A DNA stretch of 64,000 nt from Microbacterium yannicii (GTDB lineage Bacteria > Actinomycetota > Actinomycetes > Actinomycetales > Microbacteriaceae). The position numbers and the translations under genes were made by a program. The DNA is taken from NCBI RefSeq assembly GCF_024055635.1, contig NZ_JAMXMB010000032.1:1-64000 (forward strand). The letters are read 5' to 3'. Each line of letters opens with the position of its first letter. Position 1 is the first letter of the stretch. The notes below the pieces were generated by a model. That model made no database searches. It saw nothing but the letters and a program-made list of their open reading frames with translations, and was not told where the DNA came from. Of the stretch, positions 4,488 through 53,542 are shown one piece after another.

Positions 4488-4491
<4 letters not shown>

Positions 4492-5498: not shown

Positions 5499-5540
5499 CC
5501 GGGGTTCGGCCGCCGTCGGGCCGTCAGACCTCTTCGGGCG

Positions 5541-6182: not shown

Positions 6183-6257
6183 GGCGTCCTCCTTCTTCGG
6201 GTCGGTGCGGTGCGCGTGGAACGTAAAAGAGTACCCCGACGGGACCGCATCGACTAT

Positions 6258-13520: not shown

Positions 13521-13524
13521 AACC

Positions 13525-26855: not shown

Positions 26856-28637
26856 CTACTCCTCGCTCGGTCCGAGCTCCGGCTCGGCAACGAAACGGGC
26901 GACGGGGTCGGTGACACGATCGAGCTCGATCACGACGATCGAGTTCTCCCCCGCGTGCACCGCAGCGGCCGGCAGGTACAGCGTTCGCTGGGGACCGCTG
27001 CGCCAGTACCTCCCGAGCAGGAAGCCGTTGACGAGCGCGTAGCCCTTCCCCCACCCTGCGGTGTCGAGGAACAGGTCGGCGGGTGATTCCAGCGCGAACG
27101 ACCCGCGCAGGAGGAACGGGGCCACCGTCATACCGGCCACGTCCGAAGACGCGGCATCCGCCACCGCTCCACCCAAAGCTGCGACATCGATCGGCGTCGC
27201 GGCCCAGCCGGTCACCGGCACCCCGCCGAGGGTCACGGGGCCGACGAGGCCCTTGGACTCGCCCAGACGTGTGTCGTAATTGACCCGGCCCTGCTCCTCG
27301 ACGAGCACACGAACGCGGCGTCCGTCCGGCACGACGAGAGCGTCCTCGTGGCGCGTGCGCGACAGCGTGCCGACCGACACCCCGTCGACCGACACCCACG
27401 CATGGTCGCGCACCTCGCCGAAGCGCAGGACGCCACCCCGACCCCCGGGAAGCTCAGCCTCGTAGGAGACGAGCGCACTGAGGTGTCCGAGTTCCTCGAA
27501 GCTCGGCGGAGTCTCGTGTCGCACCTCGGCCGACGCGGCCGGTGCAGCCGATCCCGCCGACGCGGCCGGCGCCGCCACCGCCGTGAGAGCCACCTCGAAC
27601 GCGGGAGCCGGGCCGCTGGCCTCGGGCACCTCGTCGGTCACGGGCGCGTAGCGGGCGATCACGTCACGGAACGCGAAGTACTTGTCGGTCGGGTCGCCCC
27701 GCTCGTCGAGCGGAGCGTCGTAGTCGTACGACGTCACGATGGGGAGGTATCGGCCCTTGTCGTTGGCGCCGTTGGTCAGGCCGAAGTTGGTGCCGCCGTG
27801 GAACATGTAGAAACTCACGGATGCCCCGGCCCCGAGCAGCGCGTCGAGCTCGGCGGCCGACGCGGCCGCGGGGGTCGTGTGGTGGGCGTTGCCCCACCAG
27901 TCGAACCAGCCGTCCCAGAACTCCGCGCACATGAGGGGGCCGGTCGGCTGGTGGCGGCGGAGCGTTGCGAGCCGCTCCGTGGCGCGGGAGCCGAACGAGC
28001 CGGTCATGTGCGCCCCGGCGACACTCCCGTCGCTCAGCATCTGATCGGTCGGCTGGTCGATGGTGGTGAGCGGAACGGTGATGCCGGCATCCTTCGTCAC
28101 GCGGACGAGATGCTCGAGATACGCGGTGTCGCTGCCGTACGCGCCGTACTCGTTCTCGATCTGCACGAGGACGACCGGCCCCCCGCGGTCGATCTGGCGG
28201 GGAGCGACGATGTCGTAGACCCGCTGGAGGTACGCGGTCACCTCAGCAAGGTAGAGCGGCTCGGAGCGACGCAGCCCGATGTTCGGCATCCCGGTCAGCC
28301 ACACCGGTAGACCGCCGTTATGCCATTCGGCGCATATGTAAGGGCCGGGCCGCACGATCGCATGCATACCCTCGGCTGCGACGAGGTCGAGGAAGGCGCC
28401 GAGGTCGTTCCAACTGGTCGCATCCCACTCGCCCCGTACGGGTTCGTGGGCGTTCCACGCCACATATGTCTCGATGGTGTTGAGCCCCATCAACCGCGCC
28501 TTGCGGATGCGGTCGGCCCACTGTCCGGGGTGCACGCGGAAGTAGTGCAGGGCCCCGGCCAGCACTCGGAACGGCTCGCCGTCGAGGAGGAAGTCGGACT
28601 CGCCGATCGCGAACGAGCGGGCGTCGGCCGCCGTCAT
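26856..28637 (-). CDS. GH35 beta-galactosidase, cytoplasmic
   Basis: 593 aa, no signal peptide. TIM-barrel GH35 signatures: YFRVHPGQWADRIRKARLMGLNTIETYVAWNAHEP, RPGPYICAEWHNGGLPVWL, VQIENEYGAYG (acid/base Glu) and LMCAEFWDGWFDWWG (nucleophile Glu), then FYMFHGGTNFG. The C-terminal third is beta-rich with a jelly-roll (WGKGYALVNGFLLGRYWRSGPQRTLYLPA). An Ala/Ser-rich linker (ASAGSAAPAAS) joins them. It removes terminal beta-Gal from imported oligosaccharides. The ATG overlaps the aldolase stop (ATGA), making it the third gene of the kinase-aldolase-galactosidase operon. Confidence 0.94.
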   Translation of the reverse strand: MTAADARSFAIGESDFLLDGEPFRVLAGALHYFRVHPGQWADRIRKARLMGLNTIETYVAWNAHEPVRGEWDATSWNDLGAFLDLVAAEGMHAIVRPGPYICAEWHNGGLPVWLTGMPNIGLRRSEPLYLAEVTAYLQRVYDIVAPRQIDRGGPVVLVQIENEYGAYGSDTAYLEHLVRVTKDAGITVPLTTIDQPTDQMLSDGSVAGAHMTGSFGSRATERLATLRRHQPTGPLMCAEFWDGWFDWWGNAHHTTPAAASAAELDALLGAGASVSFYMFHGGTNFGLTNGANDKGRYLPIVTSYDYDAPLDERGDPTDKYFAFRDVIARYAPVTDEVPEASGPAPAFEVALTAVAAPAASAGSAAPAASAEVRHETPPSFEELGHLSALVSYEAELPGGRGGVLRFGEVRDHAWVSVDGVSVGTLSRTRHEDALVVPDGRRVRVLVEEQGRVNYDTRLGESKGLVGPVTLGGVPVTGWAATPIDVAALGGAVADAASSDVAGMTVAPFLLRGSFALESPADLFLDTAGWGKGYALVNGFLLGRYWRSGPQRTLYLPAAAVHAGENSIVVIELDRVTDPVARFVAEPELGPSEE

Positions 28638-29275
28638 CGGGCGGCCGCGCGCGTGCGGAGCACCTCGGCGAGGCGCTCGAGCTGCGCGGCGTCCTCGAGG
28701 GCGGAGCCGACCGCGGCGACGCGTACGCCGGCGTCGAGGAACTCCTCGACGTTCGCCGCGTTCAGGCCGCCGGTGGCGACGAAGCGCACCTGCGGGAACG
28801 GGCCGCGGATGTGCGAGAACCACCCGGTGCCGAGCCAGGTCGCCGGGAACGCCTTCAGCCACGTGAGCCCGAGCGAGACCGCCAGCTGCACCTCGCTGGG
28901 CGTCGCGACGCCGGGAAGGATCGGGATGCCGGCATCCTGCGCCGCCCGCACCACGACCGGGTCGAGCCCCGGCGAGACGAGGTACGCAGCGCCGGCGTCG
29001 GCGGCCAGCGCCACCTGCTCCGGCGTGATGATGGTGCCCGCGCCGACGCTCTTGCCGCGGGCGGCCGCGAGGGTGACGACCTCGCGCAGCGCGCGCTCGT
29101 CCTCCTGGGTCTGCAACGGCACCTCGACGGAGTCGATGCCGAGGTCCCACGCCGTCTGCGACAGACGCGCCGAACGCTCGACGCCCATGCCGCGCAGGAT
29201 CGCCATGAGCGGCGCGCCGGCGAACGCCGTCTCGAACCAGTCGCCGCCGTTCGCGGCATCCATCGTGGTCGTCAT
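28634..29275 (-). CDS. eda: KDPG (2-dehydro-3-deoxyphosphogluconate) aldolase
   Basis: 213 aa class I aldolase cleaving KDPG to pyruvate and glyceraldehyde 3-phosphate. Seen: LMAILRGM, SVEVPLQT (catalytic Glu), VGAGTI, LVSPG, ILPGVATPSE and LKAFPA with the Schiff-base Lys. A 6-phosphogalactonate substrate is also possible in this family. Lies between the KDG kinase and GH35 genes on the minus strand. Confidence 0.94.
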   Translation of the reverse strand: MTTTMDAANGGDWFETAFAGAPLMAILRGMGVERSARLSQTAWDLGIDSVEVPLQTQEDERALREVVTLAAARGKSVGAGTIITPEQVALAADAGAAYLVSPGLDPVVVRAAQDAGIPILPGVATPSEVQLAVSLGLTWLKAFPATWLGTGWFSHIRGPFPQVRFVATGGLNAANVEEFLDAGVRVAAVGSALEDAAQLERLAEVLRTRAAAR

Positions 29276-29339
29276 GAGTGTGTCCTTCTGCGGGAGCGGT
29301 CGATGGTGGTGTCGGGTTCGGGGCGTGTCGCGAGCATGT

Positions 29340-29360
29340 GGGGCGCGCGGCGCGCGCCCC
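29340..29360. other. Intercistronic hairpin between kinase and aldolase genes
   Basis: GGGGCGCGC and GCGCGCCCC pair perfectly around GGC. Flanking TTCGGGGCG and CGCCCCGAA copies can form a competing outer stem. It could set relative expression of the two genes. Confidence 0.5.
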
Positions 29361-29387
29361 GAACGTGCGGGATGCGCCCCGAACCGA

Positions 29388-30302
29388 TCATGTCGGGATG
29401 CCGGGGGCCGGCGCGACAGGCGCAGGCTCGTCGATCGAGTCGGTGGTGGTCTGCAGGGTGCGCGCAGCGCGCGCGTGCCCCGCGCGCAGGCGGTCGGGCA
29501 CGGGGGCGCCGGAGAGGCGTCCCGCGAGGTAACCGCCGGCGAACGCGTCCCCGGCGCCGACGGCCTCGACGACCTCGACGACCAGGGCCGGCTCGAACAC
29601 CTCGTCGGCGTCGGCGAACGCGGTCGCGCCGATGTCGCCGTCCTTGACGATGAGCTCGGCGACGTCCGGCAGCAGTGCGCGCACCTCGGCGGCGGTGGCG
29701 GTGCCCCACAGGGTCTCGGCCTCGTCGCGGCCGACGAGCACGACGTCGGCGCTGCGGGCCAGCTCGAGCAGCACCGGGGCGGCGGTCTCGGCATCCCACA
29801 GCGGCGCACGGTGGTTGACGTCGAACGACACCGGCACGCCGTTCTCGCGGGCGCGAGCCATGACACGTGAGAGGAACGACGACGCGGATGCCGAGATCGC
29901 GGCCGTGATGCCCGACACGTGCAGCAGATCGACGCCGTCGAACGACACCGCATCGGCGTCGGCGTCGGTCAGGTGCGCGGCCGCGGAGCCGCGGCGGTAG
30001 TAGAGGACCCCGTTGCCCGGGTCCTTCACGTACAGCCCGGTCGGGTGCGCGCCGTCGAACACGACCCGCGACACGTCGACGCCGCGGGCGGTCAGCTGCC
30101 GTGCGATGCGGCGGCCGAGCGCGTCGTCGCCCAGGCGGCTGAACCAGACGGCGCGGTGACCGAGCGCGGCCACGTGGGCGGCGACATTGGACTCCGCGCC
30201 GCCGGCGTCGAGCAGGAACGCGTCGGCATCCGTCACGGGCGCCGCGACGACCGGTGTCACCATCGCCATCGTCTCGCCGATCGCGAGCAGAGTGCGGGGC
30301 AT
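29388..30302 (-). CDS. kdgK: 2-dehydro-3-deoxygluconate (KDG) kinase, PfkB family
   Basis: 304 aa. N-terminal GETMAMVTP, GGAESNVAAHVAALGHRAVWFSRLGDDALG and C-terminal VGAGDAFAGGYLAGRLSG (catalytic Asp in GAGD) are KDG-kinase-like. It makes KDPG for the aldolase encoded just downstream. A TACGCT box 6 bases before the ATG indicates that this gene starts its own transcript, separate from the kduI gene upstream. Confidence 0.9.
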   Translation of the reverse strand: MPRTLLAIGETMAMVTPVVAAPVTDADAFLLDAGGAESNVAAHVAALGHRAVWFSRLGDDALGRRIARQLTARGVDVSRVVFDGAHPTGLYVKDPGNGVLYYRRGSAAAHLTDADADAVSFDGVDLLHVSGITAAISASASSFLSRVMARARENGVPVSFDVNHRAPLWDAETAAPVLLELARSADVVLVGRDEAETLWGTATAAEVRALLPDVAELIVKDGDIGATAFADADEVFEPALVVEVVEAVGAGDAFAGGYLAGRLSGAPVPDRLRAGHARAARTLQTTTDSIDEPAPVAPAPGIPT

Positions 30303-30308
30303 CCCGCC

Positions 30309-30314
30309 AGCGTA
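30309..30314 (-). promoter_or_regulatory. -10 box of the KDG kinase operon, leaderless
   Basis: Minus-strand TACGCT lies 6 bases before the ATG at 30302. A hairpin with arms TTCGGACG/CGTCCGAA (30364-30392) lies between it and kduI and could end the upstream transcript. Confidence 0.5.
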
Positions 30315-30443
30315 GTCAGGCCGCGGCATCCGTACCCTCACCAGATTCGGAGATCGCGCAGAATTCGGACGCCTGCGGGGCATCCGTCCGAACCTCGGCG
30401 GATCCCCGAGTTCCCCGCCACGCACTCCGGCCAGCGGCAGACG

Positions 30444-31292
30444 TCATCGCAGGTCGGTGACGGGCGCGGCGTCCATGTCGTCGAAGGCCTGGTTCTCACC
30501 GGCCATCGCCCAGATGAACGTGTACGACGACGTGCCGACGCCGGAGTGGAGCGACCACGACGGCGAGATGACGGCCTGACGGTCGGCGATCACGAGGTGA
30601 CGCGTCTCTTCGCGCTCGCCCATGAGGTGGATGACGCGAGCGTCCTCGGGCAGGTCGAAGTACAGGTAGCACTCGGTGCGGCGGTCGTGCGTGTGCGCCG
30701 GCATGGTGTTCCACATCGAGCCCGGGTGCAGCTCGGTGACGCCCATGACGATCTGGCAGCTCTTCACGCCGTTCTCGTGGATGTACTGGTTGAGTGTGCG
30801 CCGGTTCGAGGTGAGCTGGTCACCGAGCTCGCGCACGGTGCCCTCGCCGGGCGACACCAGCGCAGCGGGGTAGGCGGTGTGCGCCGGCGCAGAGAAGAGG
30901 TAGAACTGCGCACCCGATTCCTCGTCTGCGGCGTCGGCGAACGACACGGAACGGATGCCGCGGCCGAGGTACAGGCAGGCGCCCTTGACGAGCGTGTAGA
31001 CCTCGCCGTCGGCCGTGACCGTGCCGGTGCCGCCGACGTTGATGATGCCGACCTCGCGGTGCTCGAGGAAGTAGTCGCTGCGGATCTCGGGGTAGCCGCC
31101 GAGCTCCAGTACGCCGCCGGCGGGCACGGCGCCGCCGAGCACGATGCGGTCGTGGTGCGTGTAGGTCAGACGGATCTCGCCCGGCACGAAGACGTCGGGG
31201 ATGAGGTACGTGTCGCGCAGGTCCTGCGTCGTCATGCCCGGGATCTGTGCGGGGTTGGTCGCGTAGCGCTGCGGGATGTTCGTCTGGGTCAC
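30444..31292 (-). CDS. kduI: 5-dehydro-4-deoxy-D-glucuronate isomerase
   Basis: 282 aa cupin-fold zinc isomerase converting 5-keto-4-deoxyuronate to 2,5-diketo-3-deoxygluconate. Zinc ligands are visible in PAHTHDRRTECYLYFDL (His, His, Glu) and WSLHSGVGT (His). GTG start follows CCAGGAGAG. It lies 62 bp after kduD in the same operon; the next enzyme in the pathway is the product of that neighbour. Confidence 0.96.
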   Translation of the reverse strand: MTQTNIPQRYATNPAQIPGMTTQDLRDTYLIPDVFVPGEIRLTYTHHDRIVLGGAVPAGGVLELGGYPEIRSDYFLEHREVGIINVGGTGTVTADGEVYTLVKGACLYLGRGIRSVSFADAADEESGAQFYLFSAPAHTAYPAALVSPGEGTVRELGDQLTSNRRTLNQYIHENGVKSCQIVMGVTELHPGSMWNTMPAHTHDRRTECYLYFDLPEDARVIHLMGEREETRHLVIADRQAVISPSWSLHSGVGTSSYTFIWAMAGENQAFDDMDAAPVTDLR

Positions 31293-31354
31293 GGTTCTCT
31301 CCTGGTTCTGCGTGGATCTGTGAGGCGGGTCGGCGTCGCGGGTCGGCGCGGGTG

Positions 31355-32115
<761 letters not shown>

Positions 32116-32119
<4 letters not shown>

Positions 32120-33087
32120 GCGTTGTCTCCTGTGTTGTCGCCGGTCGTCGAGCGGGCGCCCTTCGTCTCGGTCGCTGGCGCTCCCTCGCTCAGGGACCGG
32201 AACGAGCGAGACTCGACGGCCGGGTCTTCGGCGACGAATCGGGTGGTGAGCTCGCCGATGCCCGAGATCCGCACCGTGACCGCATCGCCGTCGGCGAGCG
32301 GGCGGTGCGCGTCCTGGGCGGCGGGCAGCTTCTGCGGGGTTCCGGTCGAGACGATATCGCCCGGCTCGAGCGTCAGCACCTGGCTGAGGTGATGGATGAC
32401 GTACGCCACGCTGAAGATGGTGGTCGACGTCGACTGCGACACGGTGACGAGGCCGTCGCGGACGACCTCGACGAGGAGGTCCTGAGGATCTCCCACCTCG
32501 TCGGGCGTGACCACGCACGGGCCGAGCGGCGCGAAGCCGTCGGAGCACTTGCCGAGCGCCCACTGGCTCTGCCGCCGCTGCCACGCGCGGTCCGACACGT
32601 CGTTGAGGATCGTGTACCCGCCGACGTGGTCCAGCGCGTCCTCCAGGGACACCCGCTGCGCACGCCGGCCGATGACGACCGCCACCTCGCCCTCGTAGTC
32701 GACGTCCGTCGCGCCCGGAGGGATCACGACGGGCTCGTTCGGGCCTGCCAGCGTGTTCGGCGTCTTCACGAACACGTCAGGGTACTCGGGGTCGTTCGCG
32801 GTCGGATCGACACCGTCCGGCACGTGCCCGCGGTAGTTGTAGCCGAGGCACAGGATCTTGCCCGGCGTCACGGGGGCGCGCAGCGCCGCCTGGTCGAGCG
32901 CCGGCAGCCGTGCCGGGTCGGCGTCCGCCGCCTGAGCCCGCGCAGCCGCCAGGGCCGCGGCATCCGTCAGCAGCCCCTCCACCGAGCCGGCGAGATCGCC
33001 GAGGTCCAGCAGCCGGTCGCCGTCGACGCCCGCCACCACGGCCGCAGGGCGCGCACCTTCCGCGCCGGCGTACGTGACGAGCCTCAC
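32116..33087 (-). CDS. Fumarylacetoacetate hydrolase (FAH) family protein
   Basis: 323 aa. KILCLGYNYRGHVPD, FVKTPNTLAGPNEPVVIPPGATDVDYEGEVAVVIG (metal-binding Glu/Asp) and GGYTILNDVSDRAWQRRQSQWALGKCSDGFAPLGPCVV are FAH/ureidoglycolate-lyase-like motifs. Relatives hydrolyse or isomerise 2,4-diketo acids; the substrate here is unknown. The C-terminal tail (ESRSFRSLSEGAPATETKGA and on) is encoded by a dispersed repeat and is not part of the family fold. Both ends overlap neighbours by 4 bases. Confidence 0.88.
32155..32223. repeat. Dispersed repeat forming the C-terminal tail of the FAH protein
   Basis: GTCTCGGTCGCTGGCGCTCC, CTCGCTCAGGGACCGGAACG and AGCGAGACTCGACGG are pieces of the same repeat type seen at 59786-59861 and 1-86, with inverted GTCTCG/CGAGAC ends. 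It is translated in frame to within a few codons of the stop. Confidence 0.7.
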
Positions 33088-34295
33088 CAGTACTTCCTCC
33101 ACTCGGGGCGCGCCACGCGCATCAGGGCCTCGAGGTAGAAGTAGTCGCCCCACAGCGTGCCCTCGTCGACGCCGTTGTCCTTCGGCAGGTCGTACACCGA
33201 GTGCAGGATGAGCGCGTCCGAGTCCTCGGGTGCCGCGGGCGTGTAGCCCGCGACGAGCGACGCGAGGATCGAGTGCGCGCGAGCGGTCCACTCGGCCGCG
33301 CGCGCGGCATCCGTCTCGACCTGCGCGAGCTCCAGCAGACCGCACACCGCGATGGCGGCGGCCGAGCTGTCGCGCGGGGCGTCGCTGCCGTCGGTGTAGA
33401 CCAGGTCCCAGAAGGGCACCTCGTCGGCCGGCAGGTGGCGCAGGAAGTACTCGGTGCAGCGACGGGATGCCTCGAGCAGGCGCTCGTCCCCGGTCACGGC
33501 GTAGTTCATGGCGAAGCCGTAGATGCCCCACGCCTGGCCACGTGCCCAGCACGACTCGTCGAACGCGCCCTGCTCGGTCGCGCCGCGCAGCGGCTCGCCG
33601 GTCTCGGCATCCCAGTAGAACGTGTGGAACGTCGAGTCGTCCTCGCGCAGGATGTGCTCGCGGAGCTGCGCAGTGTGTCGCGTGACGGCGTCGGCGAAGC
33701 GCTCCTCGCCGGTCTGCTCGTGAGCCCATGTCAGCAGCGGCATATTCATGAGGCTGTCGATGATGGTGCGGCCGCGCTGAGTCGGGTCGGAGAGGTCGCC
33801 CCACGCCTGGATGATGCCCGCGGGCTCGAGGAAGCGGCGCATCAGGTGCTCGGCGGCGAGCAGGGAGGCCTGCCGCGCGTCCTCGTCATCGACCAATCGC
33901 CAGGCAGCGACGGTCGACAGTGTGTAGAGGAATCCGAGATCGTGGGTGTCGAGGTCCTCCTCGGCACGCACGCGGCGCTCGAAGTCGCCGGTGTCGACCA
34001 GCGCCGCCTCCCGGTACGCGTCGTCGCCGCTGAGCTCCCACGCGAGCCACAGCATGCCCGTGCGGAAGCTGGTGGTCCACCCGCGGTTGCCGCCGACCGG
34101 GATGCCGCGCTCCGCCGGGCGGAGCCGGTAGCGGTCGTCCACCGTCGTGTCGTCGGGGTACGCGCCCCCGAAGGTCGCGATGTTCCGGCGGATCGTCGTG
34201 AGTGCGGCCGCGATGGCGGCGTCCGTCGGAACGGCGGGAGCGGGCGCGTCACCGGACGTGGCTCGGGTGCCCGCAGCGGGCGAGGTGGACGTCAT
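33084..34295 (-). CDS. GH88 unsaturated glucuronyl hydrolase
   Basis: 403 aa (alpha/alpha)6-barrel enzyme that hydrates the 4,5-double bond of the non-reducing unsaturated uronic acid left by polysaccharide lyases, releasing 5-keto-4-deoxyuronate. Seen: EEDLDTHDLGFLYTLS and GRTIIDSLMNMPLLTWA (the two functional Asp regions), SCWARGQAWGIYGFAMNY and GVDEGTLWGDYFYLEALMR. No signal peptide, so it works in the cytoplasm after import. ATG 34295 follows GAAGGA. The stop overlaps the FAH start (GTGA). Confidence 0.94.
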   Translation of the reverse strand: MTSTSPAAGTRATSGDAPAPAVPTDAAIAAALTTIRRNIATFGGAYPDDTTVDDRYRLRPAERGIPVGGNRGWTTSFRTGMLWLAWELSGDDAYREAALVDTGDFERRVRAEEDLDTHDLGFLYTLSTVAAWRLVDDEDARQASLLAAEHLMRRFLEPAGIIQAWGDLSDPTQRGRTIIDSLMNMPLLTWAHEQTGEERFADAVTRHTAQLREHILREDDSTFHTFYWDAETGEPLRGATEQGAFDESCWARGQAWGIYGFAMNYAVTGDERLLEASRRCTEYFLRHLPADEVPFWDLVYTDGSDAPRDSSAAAIAVCGLLELAQVETDAARAAEWTARAHSILASLVAGYTPAAPEDSDALILHSVYDLPKDNGVDEGTLWGDYFYLEALMRVARPEWRKYW

Positions 34296-34371
34296 GGGAG
34301 GGAATCCTTCGGAAATAGAAGTCTGGAACGGATGCTTCGTCCCGCGCCGTGTGGGCGCGGGTACCGCGGCC

Positions 34372-35079: not shown

Positions 35080-35083
35080 GGTG

Positions 35084-36043: not shown

Positions 36044-36975
36044 CAGCTGCTCCGCTTCTTGTTCCAGAGGAACTGCACGATCGTGACGAGGATGCACATG
36101 AAGAACAGCGCCACCGCGGCGGCCGACGCGTAGCCGAACTGGCTCTCTTCGAAGCCCTTGCGGTAGATGAACTGCGACATCACGAGGGTGGACTGACCCG
36201 GGCCGCCGTCGGTCATGACGAGGATCAGGTCGAAGATCTTGAACGAGTTGATCGTCAGCATCACGGTGACGAAGAACATCGTGGGACGAAGGCACGGCAG
36301 CGTCACGTTGACGAACCGCTGCCAGACGTTCGCACCGTCCACGCGCGCCGCCTCGTGCAGTTCACGGGGCACGGTCTGCAGGCCCGCGAGGAACAGGATC
36401 ATGTAGTAGCCCATGTCGCGCCAGGTGCCGACGATCACGACTGCGGGCATGGCCCACTCGGGCGAGGTCAGCCAGCCGGGAGGGTTCTGGATGCCGATGA
36501 ACCGGAGGAACTCGTTGATCGGGCCGTACTCGGGGCTGAAGAGCAGGTTCCACACGACGGCGATCGCAACGATCGACGTGATGTACGGGAAGAAGGCGGC
36601 GGTGCGGAAGAAGGCGACGCCGCGGAGCTTGTTGTTGAGCAGCAGCGCGAGGCCCAGCGAGACGAGGATCGTCAGCGGGATGTGCAGCGCCGAGTAGTAG
36701 AGGGTGTTGAGAACCGAGATGCGGAAGCTGCCGTCGCCGATGAGGCGCTGGAAGTTCGCGAGGCCGACCCAGTCGGCCTTGCCGAACACGTTCCAGTTCG
36801 TGAACGACATGTAGAACAGCACGATGATCGGGATGAGGGTGAGCAGCCCGAAGCCGATGAAGTTCGGAAGGATGAAGCTCCACCCGATGAGGGTGTTGCG
36901 CAGCCGCAGCTTCGAGCGGCCGCGGCGCACGGGCGGCGGCGCGGTGCCGGCCTCTGTGGCGGTGATGGTCGCCAT
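36043..36975 (-). CDS. Sugar ABC transporter permease (MalF/LacF-like)
   Basis: 310 aa with six membrane helices and the EAA motif ELHEAARVDGANVWQRFVNVTLPCLRP. CUT1 family partner of the following permease. It is separated from the binding-protein gene by 182 bp holding two strong hairpins, which probably lowers permease expression relative to the binding protein. Confidence 0.94.
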   Translation of the reverse strand: MATITATEAGTAPPPVRRGRSKLRLRNTLIGWSFILPNFIGFGLLTLIPIIVLFYMSFTNWNVFGKADWVGLANFQRLIGDGSFRISVLNTLYYSALHIPLTILVSLGLALLLNNKLRGVAFFRTAAFFPYITSIVAIAVVWNLLFSPEYGPINEFLRFIGIQNPPGWLTSPEWAMPAVVIVGTWRDMGYYMILFLAGLQTVPRELHEAARVDGANVWQRFVNVTLPCLRPTMFFVTVMLTINSFKIFDLILVMTDGGPGQSTLVMSQFIYRKGFEESQFGYASAAAVALFFMCILVTIVQFLWNKKRSS

Positions 36976-37010
36976 GGCGGACCTCCAGTGGGGTGGATGT
37001 GCGGGGGTGC

Positions 37011-37125
37011 GGTGACCGGCCGCCGGCGGGGAGCGGGCCGGTCACCGGGTGTCCGGGTGTCGGCGCTCAGGCGCCGCGGATCGGGATCCTCCCGGCAGGC
37101 TCGCGATGAGCCGCGAGCCTGCCGG
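37011..37125. other. Two hairpins between binding-protein and permease genes
   Basis: GGTGACCGGCC (37011-37021) pairs with GGCCGGTCACC (37036-37046). CCGGCAGGCTCGCG (37092-37105) pairs perfectly with 37112-37125. Both lie within the transcript just downstream of the binding-protein stop. Confidence 0.7.
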
Positions 37126-37157
37126 AAGGTGCTGGAACGGGTCGGAAGAGCCGCGGC

Positions 37158-38465
37158 TCAGTCCGTGCCGACCTCGTTGGCGACGCGGTCCTGCGCCTCC
37201 TTGATGGCGTCGGTGACGCTCTTGGAGCCCGACATGATCGCGGTGTGCATGTCGCCGAGGATGCCCTGGACCGCGGCCGCCTTGTTCGAGGTCGGGTTCT
37301 CCGGGTGCACCTCGTGGGTCGAGTACGCGAACTTCGACAGGTCGTCCGACGGTGCGCCGTCGACCGAGAAGTACGTCTCGACGACCGGGTCGGTCAGCAG
37401 CGCCGGCGTGATGCCGATGCCGGCGAGCACCTGAGCGCCCTCCTCACCCGCGGCGAACGCGAGGAACTTCTTCGCGGCCGCGACCTTGGACTCGTCGATC
37501 CCGGCGTTGATGCCGAAGCCGGTCGGGTCGCCGAAGGTGACCGGGGTGTTGTCCAGACCGGCCGTCTTGGAGTCGACCTGCGGGATGGGCGCGATGCCCC
37601 ACTCGAAGTCGTCGGCGTCGCCCGAGGCCTGCTGCGCGATGAGCGTCGCGACGAACCACGTGCCCATCTGCAGCATCGCGGCGTTCTGCTTGCCGAACTC
37701 GCCCTGGTACGTCAGCTGGTTGGCCTTCGCCGTGTTGTAGTCGACCTGGTCGCCTGCGTCCTGGAGCGCGAGCACGTTGTCGTAGAAGGGCTCCATGTAC
37801 TCGTAGTCGCCCGCGAGGATGTCGCCGTCGGACTGCGCGTTGGCGAAGCCCTGGACCGTCGACTGCCAGTTGTGGAGGTAGGCGCCCTTTGCGGAGCTGC
37901 CCGCCGCGGCGAGGCCGTCGGTCAGCGCGGCGGCGGCGTCGCTGTAGTCGTCCCACGTCCACGAGCCGTCCGGGTACTCGACGCCGGCCTGGTCGAAGAG
38001 GGCCTTGTTGTAGTACAGAACCCACGAGTCGTTGCGGTAGGGCACCGCGTACGCGGTGCCGTCGAGCTCGTACGACTTCGCACCGCTGATGCCGTCAGGC
38101 AGCTCGACGTCCGACACGTCGAGGAGCTGGCCGCCCTCGGCGAAGGTCGGGAGGAACTTGACCTCCTTCTGCGTGATGATGTCGGGGCCGGAGCCGGCGG
38201 CGAGGTCGGCGGTGACGAGCGTGTTGTACTCGGTGGCGTCGTAGCCCTTGACCTCGACTGTGATGTCGGGGTTCGCCTCGTGGAACGCGTCGGCGAGCGC
38301 CTGGAACTCCGGCGTCGTGTCGATGCTCCAGCCGGAGAGGCTCAGCGTGACCGGACCCGAGGACTCCTCGGGCGCGGCTGCGTCGTCGCCTCCGCCGCTG
38401 CAGCCGGCGAGAGCGAGCGTTGCGACCACGGCGATGCCGGCCGCGGCAGCGAATGAGCGCTTCAT
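37158..38465 (-). CDS. Sugar ABC transporter substrate-binding lipoprotein
   Basis: 435 aa. Signal peptide MKRSFAAAAGIAVVATLALAGC with lipobox LAGC, then a Gly/Asp-rich linker and a CUT1 (SBP type 1) domain: VTLSLSGWSIDTTPEFQALADAFHEANPDITVEVKGYD, PYRNDSWVLYYNKALFDQAGVEYPDGSWTWDDY. It captures the oligosaccharide at the cell surface. ATG is preceded by AAAGGAG. It follows the DUF2264 gene by 49 bp and may share its promoter. Confidence 0.95.
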   Translation of the reverse strand: MKRSFAAAAGIAVVATLALAGCSGGGDDAAAPEESSGPVTLSLSGWSIDTTPEFQALADAFHEANPDITVEVKGYDATEYNTLVTADLAAGSGPDIITQKEVKFLPTFAEGGQLLDVSDVELPDGISGAKSYELDGTAYAVPYRNDSWVLYYNKALFDQAGVEYPDGSWTWDDYSDAAAALTDGLAAAGSSAKGAYLHNWQSTVQGFANAQSDGDILAGDYEYMEPFYDNVLALQDAGDQVDYNTAKANQLTYQGEFGKQNAAMLQMGTWFVATLIAQQASGDADDFEWGIAPIPQVDSKTAGLDNTPVTFGDPTGFGINAGIDESKVAAAKKFLAFAAGEEGAQVLAGIGITPALLTDPVVETYFSVDGAPSDDLSKFAYSTHEVHPENPTSNKAAAVQGILGDMHTAIMSGSKSVTDAIKEAQDRVANEVGTD

Positions 38466-38514
38466 TCTGGGGGTACTCCTTTGTGATTGCGGACCCGTCT
38501 TCGGGCCCATCGGG

Positions 38515-40629
38515 TTACCGGTTCGCGACGGACGCGGTTCCGGGGTGTGCGAGGCGACTGGTGGTCGCCGTTCCGTCGGGCCAGGTGACCGTGACGGTGG
38601 TCTGGTCGCCGTCGGACGCGAGTGCGACGGCGGCCGCCGCATCGGCGGGCGATGCGAGGTCTTCGGTGGTGAGTTCGACGAGCGTGGCGTTCCACTGCCC
38701 AGGTGCGACCGGGTAGGCGACGAGCGGAACCGCGGCGACAGGCCCGAGAGGGCTGGCGTCGTCGCGGGTCTCGATGGTGGTCTCGCCGTCGCCGAGCAGG
38801 GGACGGATGCGGGAGCTCAGCCCGTTCGCGATCACCGAGGCCGCGGCATCCGTGTTCTTCGACTCCACCGCGGCGTCCTCAGTTGAGGACGAGGCCCGAG
38901 TTGAGGAGCCAGGTTCGGCGTTTCGGACCTCAGCTGCGCGCAGCTCCTCAATCGAGGACGAGGGCTCTTCGTCGGACGCGAGGGCCCAGCCGCCCACGCG
39001 GAGGCGCAGCGACGCGGCGTCAATGCCGGGCTCGAGCGAGTCGACGCGCGCGAGGCGCACCTCCCACGGACCGCGGACGAGCGAGTGCACCTCGACGACG
39101 CCTGCGACCTCGACGTCGCCGTCGACGCCCGAGCCGTGGCGCTGGGCGGACGGACGCACGGTGATCCAGTGGGCCCGTGAGACCGATGCGGCGATGCCGA
39201 CACGGCCGCCGTCGTCGTCCTGCACGCGCACGTCGATCAGGTCCATCGCGGCACGGTGCGTCGCGCGACCCGCCGGGTCGACCAGGGCGACCGACTGCTC
39301 GAGCGGCTCCGACCACGCGCGCTGGTTCGCGAGCGGGCCGGCGGCGGTCGAGTAGCCGATGCGGGCGTACAGCGGCGAGTCGCCGACGAGGCTGCCCTCG
39401 GCGGCGTGGTCGGTGCCGTGGTTGGCGATGCGGACGATGCCGTCGGCGCGCGTACCCGAGATCACCCACCCGGCCGGGCGCACCGCGCGCAGCTCGTCTC
39501 CGGCCTCGATCGGCAGCGGTTCGCTCTCGGCGGCCCACACCGGGTGATCGGCGGGGAGCGAGATGCCGAGCAGGCCCTTGACCGCCCAGTACGGCGAGCC
39601 GGGACCCGAGTACGACTGGGCGAGCTCGCGCCATTCGCCGTGCCAGCCCATGGTGAGGACGCCGTCCTCGCCGGGGGCGCCGTGCTCGGTGAAGTGCGCG
39701 ACCACGGCGTTGGCGGCACGCCGCAGCTGCCCGAGCGGGACGGAGGGGACCTCTGCGATCGCGCCCACCCAGAACGGGGCGGCGGCCGCGAAGCGGTAGA
39801 TGAGGCTGCGGCCCTGCACGAGCGGCGAGCCGTCGGCGCCGACGAGGGTGACGGCATCCTGCAGGAAGCGGTCCAGACGCACGATGTCGCCGGCGGTACG
39901 GCCGTTCGCCAGCTCGTCGGCGCCCTGCATGCGCGACCACAGCACCGGATACGTGTGCAGTGCCCAGCCGACGTAGTGGTCGTATGAGCGCTCGAAGCCG
40001 TCCGAGATCCAGCCGTCCTCGCGGACGAGGCTGTCATGCAATGCCAGGTCGTCGACGACGTCCTCGGCCGACCACGGGCCGCCGACCGAGCGCAGGAACG
40101 TCTGCACGACCAGGCGGAACCACAGCCAGTTGGTCTTGGGATAGGTGGAGTCCCCCACGACGGGCGCGAGGTAGGCGATCACGCGCTCCTGCGTGAGGGC
40201 GTCGAGGCGGTCCCAGATCCACGGACGCGTCATGTCGAGCACGAGCGCGAGCGACGCGGCCTCGACCTTGGCCTGTGCGTGCTCGTCCAGGCGCACCCAG
40301 CGGTCCTCGGCGTCCGGATCGACGCCGGTCACGATGCCGCGGCGGTAGAAGTCTGCGAGCTCCTCGGTGCCCTCGCCGCGCGCACCGGCGATGCGGAACC
40401 CGGCGAGCAGGAACGTGCGGGCGAAGCCTTCGAGCCCGTCCACCGCGTGACCGTAACCGCCTTCGGCCCCCGGGAAGTGGATGCGGCCGGCGGCCGGCGA
40501 CGCATAGGTGCGGGCGGTGTCGAGCAGGAGATCTGCGCAGGCGACCCACTCATCGCGGGTCCACTCCCGCGCAGCCCAGGCGGCACCCGTCGCGTTGCGC
40601 GTCGACCTGGTGGGCTGCTGGACCGTCAC
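38515..40629 (-). CDS. DUF2264-domain protein, putative glycan-active enzyme
   Basis: 704 aa, no signal peptide. The N-terminal (alpha/alpha) region (ADLLLDTARTYASPAAGRIHFPGAEGGYGHAVDGLEGFARTFLLAGFR ... YPKTNWLWFRLVVQTFLRSVGG, DGWISDGFERSYDHYVGWALH) is DUF2264, found in polysaccharide utilisation loci near lyases and GH88/GH105 enzymes; a lyase or hydrolase role is likely. The C-terminal half is beta-rich. Odd: residues around 558-590 (SSSIEELRAAEVRNAEPGSS and on) come from a palindromic DNA repeat inside the gene. GTG start after GAAGGAG. Confidence 0.85.
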   Translation of the reverse strand: MTVQQPTRSTRNATGAAWAAREWTRDEWVACADLLLDTARTYASPAAGRIHFPGAEGGYGHAVDGLEGFARTFLLAGFRIAGARGEGTEELADFYRRGIVTGVDPDAEDRWVRLDEHAQAKVEAASLALVLDMTRPWIWDRLDALTQERVIAYLAPVVGDSTYPKTNWLWFRLVVQTFLRSVGGPWSAEDVVDDLALHDSLVREDGWISDGFERSYDHYVGWALHTYPVLWSRMQGADELANGRTAGDIVRLDRFLQDAVTLVGADGSPLVQGRSLIYRFAAAAPFWVGAIAEVPSVPLGQLRRAANAVVAHFTEHGAPGEDGVLTMGWHGEWRELAQSYSGPGSPYWAVKGLLGISLPADHPVWAAESEPLPIEAGDELRAVRPAGWVISGTRADGIVRIANHGTDHAAEGSLVGDSPLYARIGYSTAAGPLANQRAWSEPLEQSVALVDPAGRATHRAAMDLIDVRVQDDDGGRVGIAASVSRAHWITVRPSAQRHGSGVDGDVEVAGVVEVHSLVRGPWEVRLARVDSLEPGIDAASLRLRVGGWALASDEEPSSSIEELRAAEVRNAEPGSSTRASSSTEDAAVESKNTDAAASVIANGLSSRIRPLLGDGETTIETRDDASPLGPVAAVPLVAYPVAPGQWNATLVELTTEDLASPADAAAAVALASDGDQTTVTVTWPDGTATTSRLAHPGTASVANR
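38875..38963. repeat. Palindromic repeat in frame inside the DUF2264 gene
   Basis: GTCCTCA-GT-TGAGGAC (38875-38890) is followed by TTGAGGAGC (38901-38909) and its exact inverse GCTCCTCAA (38943-38951), with an inner GCTGCGCGCAGC palindrome. It differs in sequence from the TTCGACAAGCTCA family, so it is a second repeat type. The host gene frame is maintained. Confidence 0.75.
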
Positions 40630-40716
40630 GGGGATCTCCTTCGATGCCTTCTTCTTGCCGCTGTGTTCGTGGTGCGGGTCTCTCTCCGCGTGCTCAACGG
40701 AAAGCGAACGTTTGGG

Positions 40717-40768
40717 ACTGTATCAACCCGATTCGTTCATTGCAAGACTGTTTGAGATTCGTTATGAT
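40717..40768. promoter_or_regulatory. Divergent promoters sharing one palindromic -35
   Basis: TTGCAA at 40740-40745 is its own reverse complement. On the plus strand it stands 17 bases before TATGAT (40763-40768, toward the lyase gene); on the minus strand 17 bases before TACAGT (40717-40722, toward the DUF2264 gene). Direct repeats GATTCGTT at 40730-40737 and 40756-40763 flank it and may bind the DeoR-LacI regulator. The surrounding 80 bp are clearly AT-rich. Confidence 0.7.
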
Positions 40769-40846
40769 CGTTTGTGATCGGTTCGATCTCGAATGTGCCC
40801 CGAACCGACGCGACGCCCACCGATGGTGAATCAACGAGGAGGAACC

Positions 40847-42898
40847 TTGACCACCCCGACGGTCCCCGGGTCAACTGCAGGAGCCTGCCACACCACTCCT
40901 GACAGGTCGCCCGAAGCGACCTTCCACGGTGCGCTGTCGGCCGTCTATCTCGCGCACGCGGGCGTCGACGCCGCCGGTTTCGAGGCCGCCCTCGCCACCC
41001 TCCTCGCGTCCCCCGATCACGCGCTGCCCGTCCCGGCATCGGACGACCGGGACGTCTGGGGCCCTCACGGCAGCGCCGACCCGATCGCCGTCCGCGACGT
41101 GCTCGCACGGGCAGCTGCCGACCGGTCGACCCCGTGGCCCGTGCCCTTGGCGACTGCCGTCGCGCGCCTGCACGACGACGGCGACCGCGAAGGCTGGGAG
41201 AGCATCGTGTTCGAGCGCCAGCGGCGCCTCGCACGCGCCGCGATCGCCGCCGCGCACCACGCCGACGACGGCGAGACCGGCGCCGGGTGGCTCGCGGACG
41301 TCCTCGACGGGGTGTGGCTCATCTGCGAGCAGAGCTCCTGGTGCTGGCCCGCCCACGACGACGCGTTCCGCGAGCGGGGCTCGGTGCTCCCGACAGTGAC
41401 CGCGCCCTACCTCGACCTCGGCGCGGGGGAGGCGGTCGCGCTGCTGACGTGGGTCGATCAGCTCCTCGGCGAGCGCCTCGAAGCCCGGTACCCCGGCATC
41501 CGCTCCCGTATCCGCCACGAGGCGCGCGTGCGCGTGTTCGAGCCGTTCACGCGCCGTCGCGACTGGCACTGGCTCGGGCTCGACGGCGACGTGCACAACT
41601 GGAACCCCTGGATCCACGGCAACGTGCTGCTCGCCGCGCTGCGCCTGCTCGACGGGCCCGACGAGGCCGGCGAGCGCGCGGCCATCGTGGCGCTCGCGAT
41701 CGAGGGCATCGACCGGTACGTCTCGGTGCTGCCGGCCGACGGTGCGATCGACGAGGGCTACGCCTACTGGTGGAACGGCGCCTGCCGTGCACTCGAGGCG
41801 CTCGACCTCGTACGCCACGCGACCGGGGGAGTGCTCGACGCCTCCGGCATCCCGGCGTTGCGCGAGACCGTCGCCTTCCCCCACCGGATGCACCTCGGCG
41901 GCGACTGGTACCTCAACCTCGCCGACGGGCAGGCCCGCGTCACCGCCGTGCAGCCGTGGCACGCACTGCACCGTGCGGCCCTGAGTGCGCAGGATCCGGA
42001 TGCCGCGGCCCACGCCGCATCCCACCGCATCGCCGGCACCCCCGCCGCCACCGAGCACGAGGGCTTCGGGCGGCTGCTGCGGGGCATCACCGACCCGGCG
42101 TGGGTCGACGCGGCCGAGGCGACATCGCCTTTCCCGCGCGACGTGTGGCTGCCCTCGACCGAGGTGCTGCTCGCCCGCGAGCACGGCGGCACGGGCCGCG
42201 GGCTGACCCTCGCCGTCAAGGGCGGACACAACGGCGAGCACCACAACCACAACGACGTCGGCTCGTTCGTGGTCGCGTCCGATGGCGTGCCCGTGATCGT
42301 CGACGCCGGTCGTCCGACGTACACGCGGCAGACCTTCGGTCCCGACCGCTACGACATCTGGACGATGCAGAGCGGCTGGCACAACGTGCCCGTGATCGGC
42401 GGCGTCGAGCAGAGCCCGGGCGTCGGGTTCGCGGCATCCGATGTCGAGGTGTCGCTCGGCGACGACGTGGCCGCCCTCGCACTGGAACTCTCCGGCGCAT
42501 ACCGCGCGACCGGCCCGTGGCAGCGCTCGGTGCGGCTCGATCGACCGATGCGCCGGGTGGTGATCGAGGACGCCTGGCAGCCCTCGATCGCAGACCGAGC
42601 AACGCACGACGAGGGTGACAGCGCCGAGACGCCCACGCAGGTGCGGATGCTGCTGGCCGGCGAGGTGCGCCGGGATGCGGCATCCGTCGTCGTCACCCCC
42701 CTCGAGGGTGCGGCGCCGGTGCGCATCTCCTGGCCCGAGGGGATCGCGGCCGGCCTCGTCGTGCGCGAACTCGACGACCCCGTGCTCTCGAGTGTGTGGG
42801 GCACCCGACTGACCCGGCTGGATCTGGACGTGACGACACGCGACAGCGTCACCGTCACGGTAGAACTGGAACCGACGAACCCGGAGGACGCCCGATGA
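40847..42898 (+). CDS. Heparinase II/III-family polysaccharide lyase
   Basis: 683 aa, no signal peptide, so intracellular. The N-terminal (alpha/alpha) toroid includes WLICEQSSWCWPAHDDAF, HNWNPWIHGNVLLAALRL and GYAYWWNGACRALEALDL. The C-terminal beta-sheet domain has the signature GHNGEHHNHNDVGSFVVASDGVPVIVDAGRPTYTRQTFG. It should cleave uronide oligosaccharides by beta-elimination, producing the substrate of GH88. TTG 40847 was chosen because GAGGAGG ends 4 bases before it; ATG 40823 lies upstream of that ribosome-binding site. The stop overlaps the regulator start (ATGA). Confidence 0.92.
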   Translation: MTTPTVPGSTAGACHTTPDRSPEATFHGALSAVYLAHAGVDAAGFEAALATLLASPDHALPVPASDDRDVWGPHGSADPIAVRDVLARAAADRSTPWPVPLATAVARLHDDGDREGWESIVFERQRRLARAAIAAAHHADDGETGAGWLADVLDGVWLICEQSSWCWPAHDDAFRERGSVLPTVTAPYLDLGAGEAVALLTWVDQLLGERLEARYPGIRSRIRHEARVRVFEPFTRRRDWHWLGLDGDVHNWNPWIHGNVLLAALRLLDGPDEAGERAAIVALAIEGIDRYVSVLPADGAIDEGYAYWWNGACRALEALDLVRHATGGVLDASGIPALRETVAFPHRMHLGGDWYLNLADGQARVTAVQPWHALHRAALSAQDPDAAAHAASHRIAGTPAATEHEGFGRLLRGITDPAWVDAAEATSPFPRDVWLPSTEVLLAREHGGTGRGLTLAVKGGHNGEHHNHNDVGSFVVASDGVPVIVDAGRPTYTRQTFGPDRYDIWTMQSGWHNVPVIGGVEQSPGVGFAASDVEVSLGDDVAALALELSGAYRATGPWQRSVRLDRPMRRVVIEDAWQPSIADRATHDEGDSAETPTQVRMLLAGEVRRDAASVVVTPLEGAAPVRISWPEGIAAGLVVRELDDPVLSSVWGTRLTRLDLDVTTRDSVTVTVELEPTNPEDAR

Positions 42899-44001
42899 CC
42901 GACCAGACACCGGCACTGCTGGCCGCAGAACGGCGGGCGCACGTGCTGGCGACGCTCGAGCGCGACGGCGCCGTACGGGTCGCGCAGTTGATGGACGAAC
43001 TCGGCGTCGCCCCGGTGACCCTCCGGCGGGATCTCGCGCAGATGGAGCGCGAAGGGCTGCTCGTGCGCGTGCACGGCGGCGCGGTTCCCGCTGCCGGCGC
43101 CTTCGACGACGTCGAGCCGGGGCATCCGGTCTCCGCCGCTCGCGCCGGATCGATCGCGATGCTCGTGCCGTCGCTGAGCTTCTACTGGCCGAGCGTCGTG
43201 CGCGGCGCCGAGACCGAGGCCACCCGTCACGGCCTGCGCGTGGTCCTCCGGGGCGCCTCCTACGAATTGCAGGACGAACGACCGGTGCTCGAGCGTCTCG
43301 TGCATGCCGACGGCGTGCGAGGGCTCGTGGTCGCTCCCAACACCGACACTCCCCACGCGCAGGATGTGGTGCAGTGGCTCGCCGACTGCGGCGTGCCCAA
43401 CGTGCTCGTCGAGCGCGACGCGGTGGTGCTGCCGGGCGGCAGCCCCGTCGAGAACGTCACGACCGACCACGCTCTCGGAGCAGTGCTGGCCGCGCGCCAC
43501 CTCGCCGCCCTGGGCCATCGCCGGGTGGGCCTGATCATCGCGCGGGATTCGCCGACGTCGCGCAAGATCGCCGCCGGATGGCAGGCCGCCTGCATCGAGC
43601 TCGGTCTCACGCCGTCCGATCACTTCGAGACCAGCCTGCCGCCGCGCACCAGCCCGGACTTCTCGGCGGTCGTCGACGCGACGCTCGATGCGGCGCTCGC
43701 GAACTCGGTCACCGCGATCCTCGTGCACTCCGACCCCGAGGCGATGGCCTTCGTCGACCTCGCGCTCAACCGCGGCATCTCGGTGCCGGGGGACCTGTCG
43801 GTCGTCGCCTACGACGACGAGGTGGCCGAGCTGTTCACCCCGGCGCTCACGGCGGTCAGCCCGCCGCGCAACTCCGTCGGGCGCGCGGCGGTCGACCTCC
43901 TCGCGCGCCGCATCGAGGATCCGACCCGCCCGGTTCACCGTGTCGTGCTGAACCCGACGCTGAACGTGCGCGGGTCCACCGCCCCGCCCCGCGGCGCCTG
44001 A
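42895..44001 (+). CDS. Hybrid regulator: DeoR helix-turn-helix plus LacI-type sensor
   Basis: 368 aa. Residues 12-65 (RRAHVLATLERDGAVRVAQLMDELGVAPVTLRRDLAQMEREGLLVRVHGGAVP) form a DeoR winged helix. From residue 83 a periplasmic-binding-protein-like sugar sensor follows (SIAMLVPSLSFYWPSVVRGAETEATRHGLRVVL, ALGHRRVGLIIARDSPTSRKIAAGW, SVPGDLSVVAYDDEVAELFTPALTAVSPP), as in LacI proteins. It probably represses both divergent promoters and is relieved by a pathway sugar (inference). Co-translated with the lyase gene. Confidence 0.92.
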   Translation: MTDQTPALLAAERRAHVLATLERDGAVRVAQLMDELGVAPVTLRRDLAQMEREGLLVRVHGGAVPAAGAFDDVEPGHPVSAARAGSIAMLVPSLSFYWPSVVRGAETEATRHGLRVVLRGASYELQDERPVLERLVHADGVRGLVVAPNTDTPHAQDVVQWLADCGVPNVLVERDAVVLPGGSPVENVTTDHALGAVLAARHLAALGHRRVGLIIARDSPTSRKIAAGWQAACIELGLTPSDHFETSLPPRTSPDFSAVVDATLDAALANSVTAILVHSDPEAMAFVDLALNRGISVPGDLSVVAYDDEVAELFTPALTAVSPPRNSVGRAAVDLLARRIEDPTRPVHRVVLNPTLNVRGSTAPPRGA

Positions 44002-53503: not shown

Positions 53504-53542
53504 GGATCCTTTCGTGACGTCGTTGTACGCGGATGTCGTGGG

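Follow-up and report, generated by a model that had tools for sequence, protein, structure and literature searches.

Which glycan does an actinobacterium dismantle with a single block of genes that leads from oligosaccharide capture to the cleavage of KDPG? The question is raised by positions 26856 to 44001 of a Microbacterium yannicii contig (the window, the whole stretch of 64,000 nucleotides that was analysed), and we approach it through what the genomes display directly, namely the genes present, the families to which they belong, the residues conserved, the recurrence in relatives and the exchange of a gene cassette. Our answer is that this soil bacterium's gene set probably imports GlcA-tipped galactose chains of plant gums and dismantles them intracellularly. 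The features, with genes called by an in-house codon-usage script, are as follows:

26856-28637, minus strand: GH35 β-galactosidase, without signal peptide by eye (PF01301, 364.9 bits)
28634-29275, minus strand: KDPG aldolase (TIGR01182, 149.7 bits, slightly under the cut-off of 156.05)
29388-30302, minus strand: PfkB-family KDG kinase (PF00294; top NCBIfam matches are KDG/KDGal kinases, under their cut-offs)
30444-31292, minus strand: KduI, 5-dehydro-4-deoxy-D-glucuronate isomerase, last cassette gene (NF002091, 398.3 bits, cut-off 250; 308.7 bits to 1x8m)
31355-32119, minus strand: KduD, 2-dehydro-3-deoxy-D-gluconate 5-dehydrogenase (TIGR01832, 350.3 bits, cut-off 338.85)
32116-33087, minus strand: FAH-family protein without the H-x-x-E dyad (PF01557, 221.6 bits)
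33084-34295, minus strand: GH88 unsaturated glucuronyl hydrolase, first cassette gene (313.8 bits to 2zzr; PF07470, 54 bits, cut-off 26.6)
34372-35079, minus strand: small membrane protein, weakly MusI-like (NF052431, 21.6 bits, cut-off 160)
35084-36043, minus strand: ABC permease 2 (PF00528; start position set during gene calling)
36043-36975, minus strand: ABC permease 1 (PF00528)
37158-38465, minus strand: oligosaccharide-binding lipoprotein of the ABC importer (PF01547; N-terminus ending LALAGC)
38515-40629, minus strand: DUF2264 protein, former-GH154 dehydratase family (PF10022, 344.8 bits; 81.6 bits to BcGDH, 9o4u; active-site residues kept)
40695-40784, no strand: conserved part of the divergent promoter (alignment of 10 species)
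~40847-42898, plus strand: PL33 polysaccharide lyase, without signal peptide by eye (241.7 bits to 8r6z; catalytic residues kept)
42895-44001, plus strand: regulator with a DeoR-type HTH and a LacI-type sugar-binding domain (PF08220, PF13377)

Every gene that the initial annotation had named in this uronate locus lies within the block; its list missed the FAH gene. Its proposal that import comes first and cleavage follows inside the cell agrees with the N-termini of the locus enzymes, which by eye carry no signal peptides, and the catabolism of unsaturated uronate that it had put forward is also supported. KduI and KduD exceed curated equivalog cut-offs, and GH88 matches the streptococcal UGL 2zzr over residues 57-437. 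The small membrane protein, for which no Pfam match was found, adjoins the permeases and is present in 77 of 81 loci, and none of the genes called across 26856-44001 was seen to encode a transporter ATPase. Of 282 relatives, the best 80 were kept as named loci, and the core recurs in them (they end 10 kb from the lyase, so that KduI and later genes are undercounted); the lyase is present in 34 of the 299 genomes of a family sample. Because of this recurrence the block is not a chance assembly; it is a real one, a Microbacterium oligosaccharide importer with a predicted complete pathway that starts at unsaturated uronate and ends with the cleavage of KDPG.

The protein previously described as a heparinase II/III-like lyase is indeed a predicted lyase, and its family can now be given as PL33. 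The match to 8r6z spans residues 52-681 of 701 and covers both domains, and by hand alignment to PL33 the catalytic residues N238, Y291 and H444 are kept, as are R103, H154, L174, W239, W242, Y470 and F475, while W224 is a His. Across 115 lyase rows, which include some repeats of one contig, N238 and Y291 are each conserved in 114, with one gap, and H444 in all. We predict β-elimination on a uronate polymer; a true heparin or heparan target was set aside, as the Pfam name Hepar_II_III tells only the fold. The DUF2264 protein, present as annotated, can likewise be placed, through comparison with BcGDH, in the former GH154, a family described in 2025 as glucuronate dehydratases, with a GH154-type dehydratase paired with GH88 in that account (PMC12269599). 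BcGDH residues N177, W178, F181, Y229, R285, Y289 and Y354 are kept in 111 of 111 DUF2264 rows, N176 is Thr in the protein of this locus, and E74 and R78 are matched by motif alone, since the alignment begins after both. Dehydration of a terminal GlcA is predicted, and lyase and DUF2264 protein should both generate unsaturated ends for GH88.

At each end the FAH gene shares 4 bases with its neighbour, GH88 or KduD; it occurs in 50 of the 65 loci with GH88 and in none of the dehydrogenase type (see below). In FAHD1, the water-activating dyad is His-x-x-Glu, H30/E33 (PMC7115867). The locus protein lacks this dyad: the His is kept in 50 of 50 orthologues, and the third residue after it is Asp in 39, Ala in 8, Pro in 1, Ser in 1 and a gap in 1, never Glu, whereas Glu holds this position in 27 of 27 compared paralogues, from which the locus proteins form a separate clade. 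A Pfam search found the FAH domain and no cupin match. We propose that the protein plays a KdgF-like role as a ring-opening or keto-enol isomerase, a likeness of function only and not of fold; kdgF itself is reported in under half of strains for nearly all cluster types (PMC12838403). A pairing of FAH with KduI outside this clade was considered and rejected, as no KduI or GH88 lay near FAH in three plasmid regions and in 24 further loci with flanks of only about 1.5 kb.

It is doubtful that the protein works as an ordinary C-C hydrolase in a diketo-hydrolase pathway, for instance one for rhamnose freed from the glycan. Rhamnose is able to cap GlcA in such glycans, the best characterised relatives include the L-2,4-diketo-3-deoxyrhamnonate hydrolase 8gsr (156.7 bits), and the protein scores 182.5 bits against NF053535 (cut-off 500); we nevertheless set this role aside because the dyad is lost. 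The tie of the gene to GH88 loci also speaks against it, as does the fact that no sugar-acid dehydratase was identified adjoining the FAH gene.

GH88-FAH-KduD-KduI behaves as an exchangeable cassette. In relatives, a single D-2-hydroxyacid dehydrogenase occupies its place; in M. hibisci this gene (L042, 2526-3503) stands alone between importer and KDG kinase, where the exchanged stretch measures 1.17 kb against 4.06 kb with the cassette. With loci typed by GH88 (type A) or by the dehydrogenase (type B), the two genes were found together in none of 81 and none of 103 loci, and a quick lyase tree, its support measured by SH-aLRT only, requires at least 7 supported changes of back-end type. In 30 of 33 dehydrogenase-type genomes there is no GH88 or GH105 match over cut-off, KduI was absent from 5 of 5 tested in a search without a parallel positive control, and in dehydrogenase-type loci lyase and dehydratase retain their catalytic residues. 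Such exchangeability is invisible from a single genome.

The swap of four genes for one unrelated gene points to an alternative enzyme route. Tentatively, and with the odds in our judgement against this combined reading, cassette and dehydrogenase could be alternative answers to the same problem, the dehydrogenase converting unsaturated uronides to 2-keto-3-deoxyhexonate in a nicotinamide-dependent manner and the FAH clade supplying a second, non-cupin ring-opening enzyme. At its boldest, the dehydrogenase would either reduce the opened product directly, the uronate being released otherwise, or act as a redox glycosidase. Four of five dehydrogenase paralogues, in the window's genome or more distant, have no DUF2264 gene nearby (17 of 29 matches in the sample, 3 of 4 in the window's genome), and the enzyme family is therefore not confined to uronate loci.

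That no gene here fixes the substrate, as the initial annotation had stated, is true of the window alone; its galactose- and uronate-containing glycan is upheld and narrowed towards a β-1,3/1,6-galactan by the neighbours in relatives. A GlcA-tipped β-galactan is our best guess because galactanase-like enzymes, GH59 and galT/galK/galE adjoin the core there, and we think it reasonably probable that the operon serves the catabolism of imported glucuronidated galacto-oligosaccharides, most likely type II arabinogalactan side chains of plant gums and arabinogalactan proteins. The adjoining secreted enzymes resemble endo-β-1,6- and exo-β-1,3-galactanases, with one member of each neighbour family scanned, the GH30 having the endo-β-1,6-galactanase 24td as its top match and the GH43 matching, among others, the galactan 1,3-β-galactosidase 7bys; galT, galK and galE exceed their cut-offs. 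GH59 adjoins the core in 12 of 81 loci, galT in 7, and GH30 and one GH43 family in 4 each, and two loci (L054 and L096) hold a GH42. Strong GH59 matches occur in 12 genomes of the family sample, all among those with PL33, and in the window's genome a GH59 gene adjoins a relative of the locus regulator. On arabinogalactan protein, a Rha-GlcA lyase has been described as paired with GH105 (PMC8406133). Against arabinogalactan, no secreted galactanase was found in the window and no PF14587 (GH30_2) match in its genome, the GH59 of that genome lies on another contig, all galT/K/E loci have the dehydrogenase-type back end and come from one clade of seven, a sulfatase adjoins KduI in one locus (L097), and GH30 co-occurrence is weak (9/27, p 0.001, with p-values that ignore kinship). 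We found no documentation of GH59 action on arabinogalactan.

The divergent promoter contains a direct repeat, TGATCG-TTTG-TGATCG (40765-40780). A shared operator joining GH59 to the operon was rejected: the repeat is absent upstream of GH59, and in the window's genome it has a single exact copy, with one further match at two mismatches. No perfect palindrome recurred in more than 4 of 78 intergenic regions searched. Separately, a fold-based role for a hexapeptide-toroid protein was set aside, its top matches being weak.

Two other substrates were weighed. A system for glycosaminoglycan (hyaluronan, chondroitin or heparosan) or gellan oligosaccharides would fit the PL33 enzymes characterised so far, described as cutting HA, CS, heparosan or gellan (PMC11848413), the chondroitin locus in which BcGDH works (PMC12269599), the PL8 lyases reported from Microbacterium strains (PMC12666371) and the GH88, nearest to streptococcal GAG enzymes; we consider it unlikely, as the identified locus genes include no hexosaminidase, amino-sugar kinase or deacetylase, β-galactosidases and galactanases recur beside the core, and the one actinobacterial PL33 reported, from Curtobacterium, was inactive on the authors' panel (PMC11848413). 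The side chains of pectin (rhamnogalacturonan I) appear a poor candidate. Pectin catabolism often involves GH35 and KduI/KduD, and a PcRGLX-like (rhamnogalacturonan exolyase-like) protein is encoded elsewhere in the window's genome, but the latter adjoins another DUF2264 locus (L195), which has a transporter of its own, the GH88 resembles the glucuronyl type, and the galactanases beside the core resemble β-1,3/1,6 enzymes.

For type II arabinogalactan, the course of events that we infer in this organism, including every enzyme activity, the substrate and the FAH step, would begin with secreted enzymes, encoded elsewhere, releasing galactan side chains, which the lipoprotein and the two permeases would import. 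The lyase would detach whatever cap or neighbour is 4-linked to GlcA, and the dehydratase would take water from a bare terminal GlcA, each leaving a 4,5-unsaturated uronate, which GH88 would release; GH35 would remove the exposed galactose. The FAH protein may assist ring opening and ketonisation, after which KduI, KduD, KDG kinase and KDPG aldolase would yield pyruvate and glyceraldehyde 3-phosphate, with the regulator sensing a sugar ligand.

In combining a lyase, a former-GH154 dehydratase and GH88, so that cut and bare GlcA ends would both feed the same hydrolase, the locus resembles BcPUL25 of Bacteroides caccae (PL35, BcGDH, GH88); unlike it, it has PL33, cytoplasmic enzymes, ABC import, GH35 in place of GH109 and a full Kdu pathway with FAH in the operon, and its glycan is probably another. 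With BT4410 and its PL33 relatives the lyase shares two-domain coverage and the conserved residues, but it differs in the His at W224 and, by eye, the absent signal peptide. The cytoplasmic GH88-to-KDPG logic recalls streptococcal GAG clusters (UGL, DhuI/DhuD, KdgK, KdgA), which have DhuI/DhuD rather than KduI/KduD and PTS rather than ABC import, and to which this locus adds FAH, an intracellular PL33 and the dehydratase. KdgF, a cupin, is like the FAH-fold protein only in the proposed step from unsaturated uronate to linear keto form. The gum arabic Rha-GlcA lyases (PL42, the GH145 anterior site) likewise lyase the cap off GlcA ahead of an unsaturated uronyl hydrolase, but their folds are unrelated and they act outside the cytoplasm.

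These results offer a concrete, assayable function for actinobacterial PL33 and DUF2264 genes, and the FAH clade is a candidate for enzymatic ring opening where KdgF is absent. Genomes with dehydratase and lyase but without the partner hydrolase provide a natural test of whether former GH154 enzymes, as claimed in 2025, act as dehydratases in the service of GH88/GH105, and, if the reading of the dehydrogenase type is right, they would hold a widespread, so far unrecognised way of handling unsaturated uronic acids.

The window's genome comprises 42 contigs totalling 4,444,727 bases, and the uronate locus (26856-44001) consists of two divergent units around one common promoter region. The leftward unit carries, in order, DUF2264, a solute-binding lipoprotein, two permeases, a small membrane protein, GH88, FAH, KduD, KduI, KDG kinase, KDPG aldolase and GH35, and the rightward one the lyase followed by a DeoR-HTH/LacI-type regulator. 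Four-base overlaps between GH88 and FAH, FAH and KduD, and aldolase and GH35 suggest coupled translation of these pairs. Every gene listed in the initial annotation, which had proposed a complete locus for the use of unsaturated uronates, is present, and FAH, missing from that list, is added; the interpretation given there is partly supported, and the window's own catabolic route is mostly explained. The features discussed are:

18390-20585, plus strand: hexapeptide acyltransferase domain fused to an alpha/alpha toroid
32116-33087, minus strand: FAH gene
38515-40629, minus strand: DUF2264, formerly GH154, putative glucuronate dehydratase
40695-40784: divergent-promoter stretch with a TGATCG direct repeat
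40847-42898, plus strand: PL33 lyase
42895-44001, plus strand: regulator
52184-55105: GH39-family enzyme and solute-binding protein, apparently another sugar locus

The divergent-promoter stretch is near-invariant across 10 species, including M. hibisci, and likely comprises operator and promoters. The closest relatives of the lyase are from Microbacterium (88% identity to M. psychrotolerans). In the window and the best 80 of 282 named relatives (81 loci, flanks of up to 10 kb), the core recurs almost throughout, with the lyase in 81, DUF2264 in 80, the regulator in 79, the lipoprotein in 78, and each permease and the membrane protein in 77. The hexapeptide-toroid family occurs in 32 of the 81 and often adjoins the regulator (e.g., 13153-14871 of the compared locus L044); its toroid, modelled with high confidence, resembles known folds only weakly (e.g., MmpH at TMt 0.51).

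The lyase and DUF2264 are the two enzymes predicted to make unsaturated ends. Over residues 52-681 the lyase aligns with crystal structures of PL33 enzymes (8r6z-8r75, 241.7 bits), with PL35 structures far lower in the list, and the chain numbering of the alignment is that of the PL33 paper (PMC11848413). In this alignment the catalytic N238, Y291 and H444 are present, as are the subsite residues R103, H154, L174, W239, W242 (invariant in subfamily PL33_1 according to the available text of PMC11848413), Y470 and F475, while W224 is replaced by His; the catalytic residues are conserved across 115 relative rows, which include repeats of the same contig, except in one gapped row. DUF2264 matches BcGDH (9o4u/9nwf, about 80 bits), the enzyme behind the re-description of GH154 as uronate dehydratases by Alvarez and colleagues (PMC12269599). 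Seven active-site residues are conserved in 111/111 rows, N176 is Thr in the window protein and likewise in 8oi4, and for E74 and R78 the match is by motif only. BT3677, the founding member, which has a second domain, is described in the available part of that paper as having activity on methyl beta-glucuronide and none on chondrosine; at 704 residues the window protein is likewise long. GH88 closely resembles streptococcal UGL (313.8 bits).

FAH is found in 50 of the 65 GH88 loci among the 81, and never where GH88 is lacking. A sample of 394 genomes of the class yields six copies sharing 66-100% identity, each in the arrangement GH88-FAH-KduD-KduI, and identity drops to 45% at the next match. 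Unsaturated uronates are 2-keto acids in enol-ether form, and the FAH superfamily is known to include keto-enol isomerisation among its reactions, so that a KdgF-like role is plausible, if tentative and with the balance tilting against it. As 15 GH88 loci are without FAH, it would be useful but dispensable, or else the step proceeds unaided there. In FAH-family hydrolases a His and, three positions further along, a Glu hold the attacking water (FAHD1 H30/E33, in the available text of PMC7115867); the locus clade has the dyad His in 50/50 and the Glu in 0/50, against 27/27 for the Glu in compared paralogues, from which it also differs by a three-residue insertion, and its metal-binding acids are conserved. 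In seven loci (six from Micromonosporaceae, one from Cellulomonas; e.g., L085, 1438-2262), none with FAH, an IolB-type protein (TIGR04378, 214.3 bits, cut-off 205) occupies the position expected for KduI, and in one Microbacterium locus a sulfatase-family gene lies past KduI (L097, 1-888).

Regarding the substrate, the 81 loci have beside the core GH59 (12), GH30 (4), one GH43 family (4), GH35 (5, counting the window) and galT (7). Scanning one member of each gave GH59 (211-243 bits), GH30_2, whose best solved relative is the secreted endo-beta-1,6-galactanase 24td, and GH43, whose solved relatives include a galactan 1,3-beta-galactosidase; galT, galK and galE exceed curated cut-offs, and GH42 occurs in two loci (L054, L096). 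GH59 above 200 bits is found in 12 of 299 genomes of the family, all 12 among the 34 with the lyase (p 6e-13; by genus 7/7 vs 16/85, p 2e-6; kinship ignored in both), and lies less than 20 kb from it in 4 of the 12; for GH30_2 the co-occurrence is weak (9/27 genomes, p 0.001, kinship ignored). In the window's genome, a GH59 gene (1,799 residues) adjoins a relative of the regulator (L145, contig 16, 8388-15132), and no PF14587 match was found. These galactanase, GH59 and gal neighbours, together with the succession of lyase and unsaturated uronyl hydrolase on arabinogalactan protein in the available text of PMC8406133, favour a GlcA-tipped beta-1,3/1,6-galactan as the putative substrate. Against this stand the lack of anything secreted in the window itself and the known PL33 activities, which are on glycosaminoglycans and gellan (PMC11848413); the available main text of that paper does not mention gum arabic or arabinogalactan, and the sole actinobacterial PL33 it names, from Curtobacterium, was inactive on its panel.

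In 13 of the 81 loci, a D-2-hydroxyacid dehydrogenase replaces GH88, FAH, KduD and KduI; it never occurs together with GH88 (0/81), and neither is within reach in three. Of the 34 lyase genomes of the family sample, 13 have GH88, 20 the dehydrogenase and one neither. The lyase of M. hibisci (L042) is 84% identical to the window's, and the loci align on either side of the exchange (window 34393-36993 with 3602-6209, and 27919-30333 with 1-2430), which spans 4,059 bases in the window and 1,171 in L042, where KDG kinase, aldolase and GH35 are retained. In a quickly built tree with 105 lyases (69 of GH88 type, 32 of dehydrogenase type, 4 unassigned), the label changes at least nine times, at least seven of these forced by well-supported branches. 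In two sets of genomes searched, a GH88/GH105 match above the Pfam cut-off is present in 13/13 and 14/14 of GH88 type, and in only 1/20 and 2/13 of dehydrogenase type; KduI was not found in 5/5 of the latter type, in a search without positive control. The catalytic residues of lyase and DUF2264 are conserved in both types. Two neighbours were also observed, the ThuA-like protein near 8/33 dehydrogenase-type and 0/70 GH88-type loci, the operon in the neighbourhood of both types of lyase or DUF2264 locus:

L157, 12755-13561: ThuA-like protein
L048, 488-2859, also L157, L202 and L203: operon of Gfo/Idh/MocA oxidoreductase, DUF993 and xylose-isomerase-like TIM barrel

In a survey reaching past the lyase loci, 24 DUF2264 genes in 174 genomes have the dehydrogenase within 5 kb in 12 cases, GH88 within 10 kb in 7, both in none and neither in 5 (one at a contig end). 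In the window's genome a second DUF2264 gene shares four bases with that of a D-2-hydroxyacid dehydrogenase; this locus (L195, contig 16, 8115-19000) also has a regulator and an importer of its own and a secreted-looking PcRGLX-like exolyase, and no GH88 or GH105. The nine closest dehydrogenases all adjoin DUF2264, and 17 of the 29 total matches do not. The dehydrogenase's Arg and His are conserved in 54/54 rows, and among solved structures the enzyme is most closely related to glyoxylate reductase and phosphoglycerate dehydrogenase. Among the literature matches listed, none on GH154/DUF2264 had DUF2264, and none linked such a dehydrogenase to DUF2264 or unsaturated uronates. What a specialist would find unexpected is this replacement of four genes by one.
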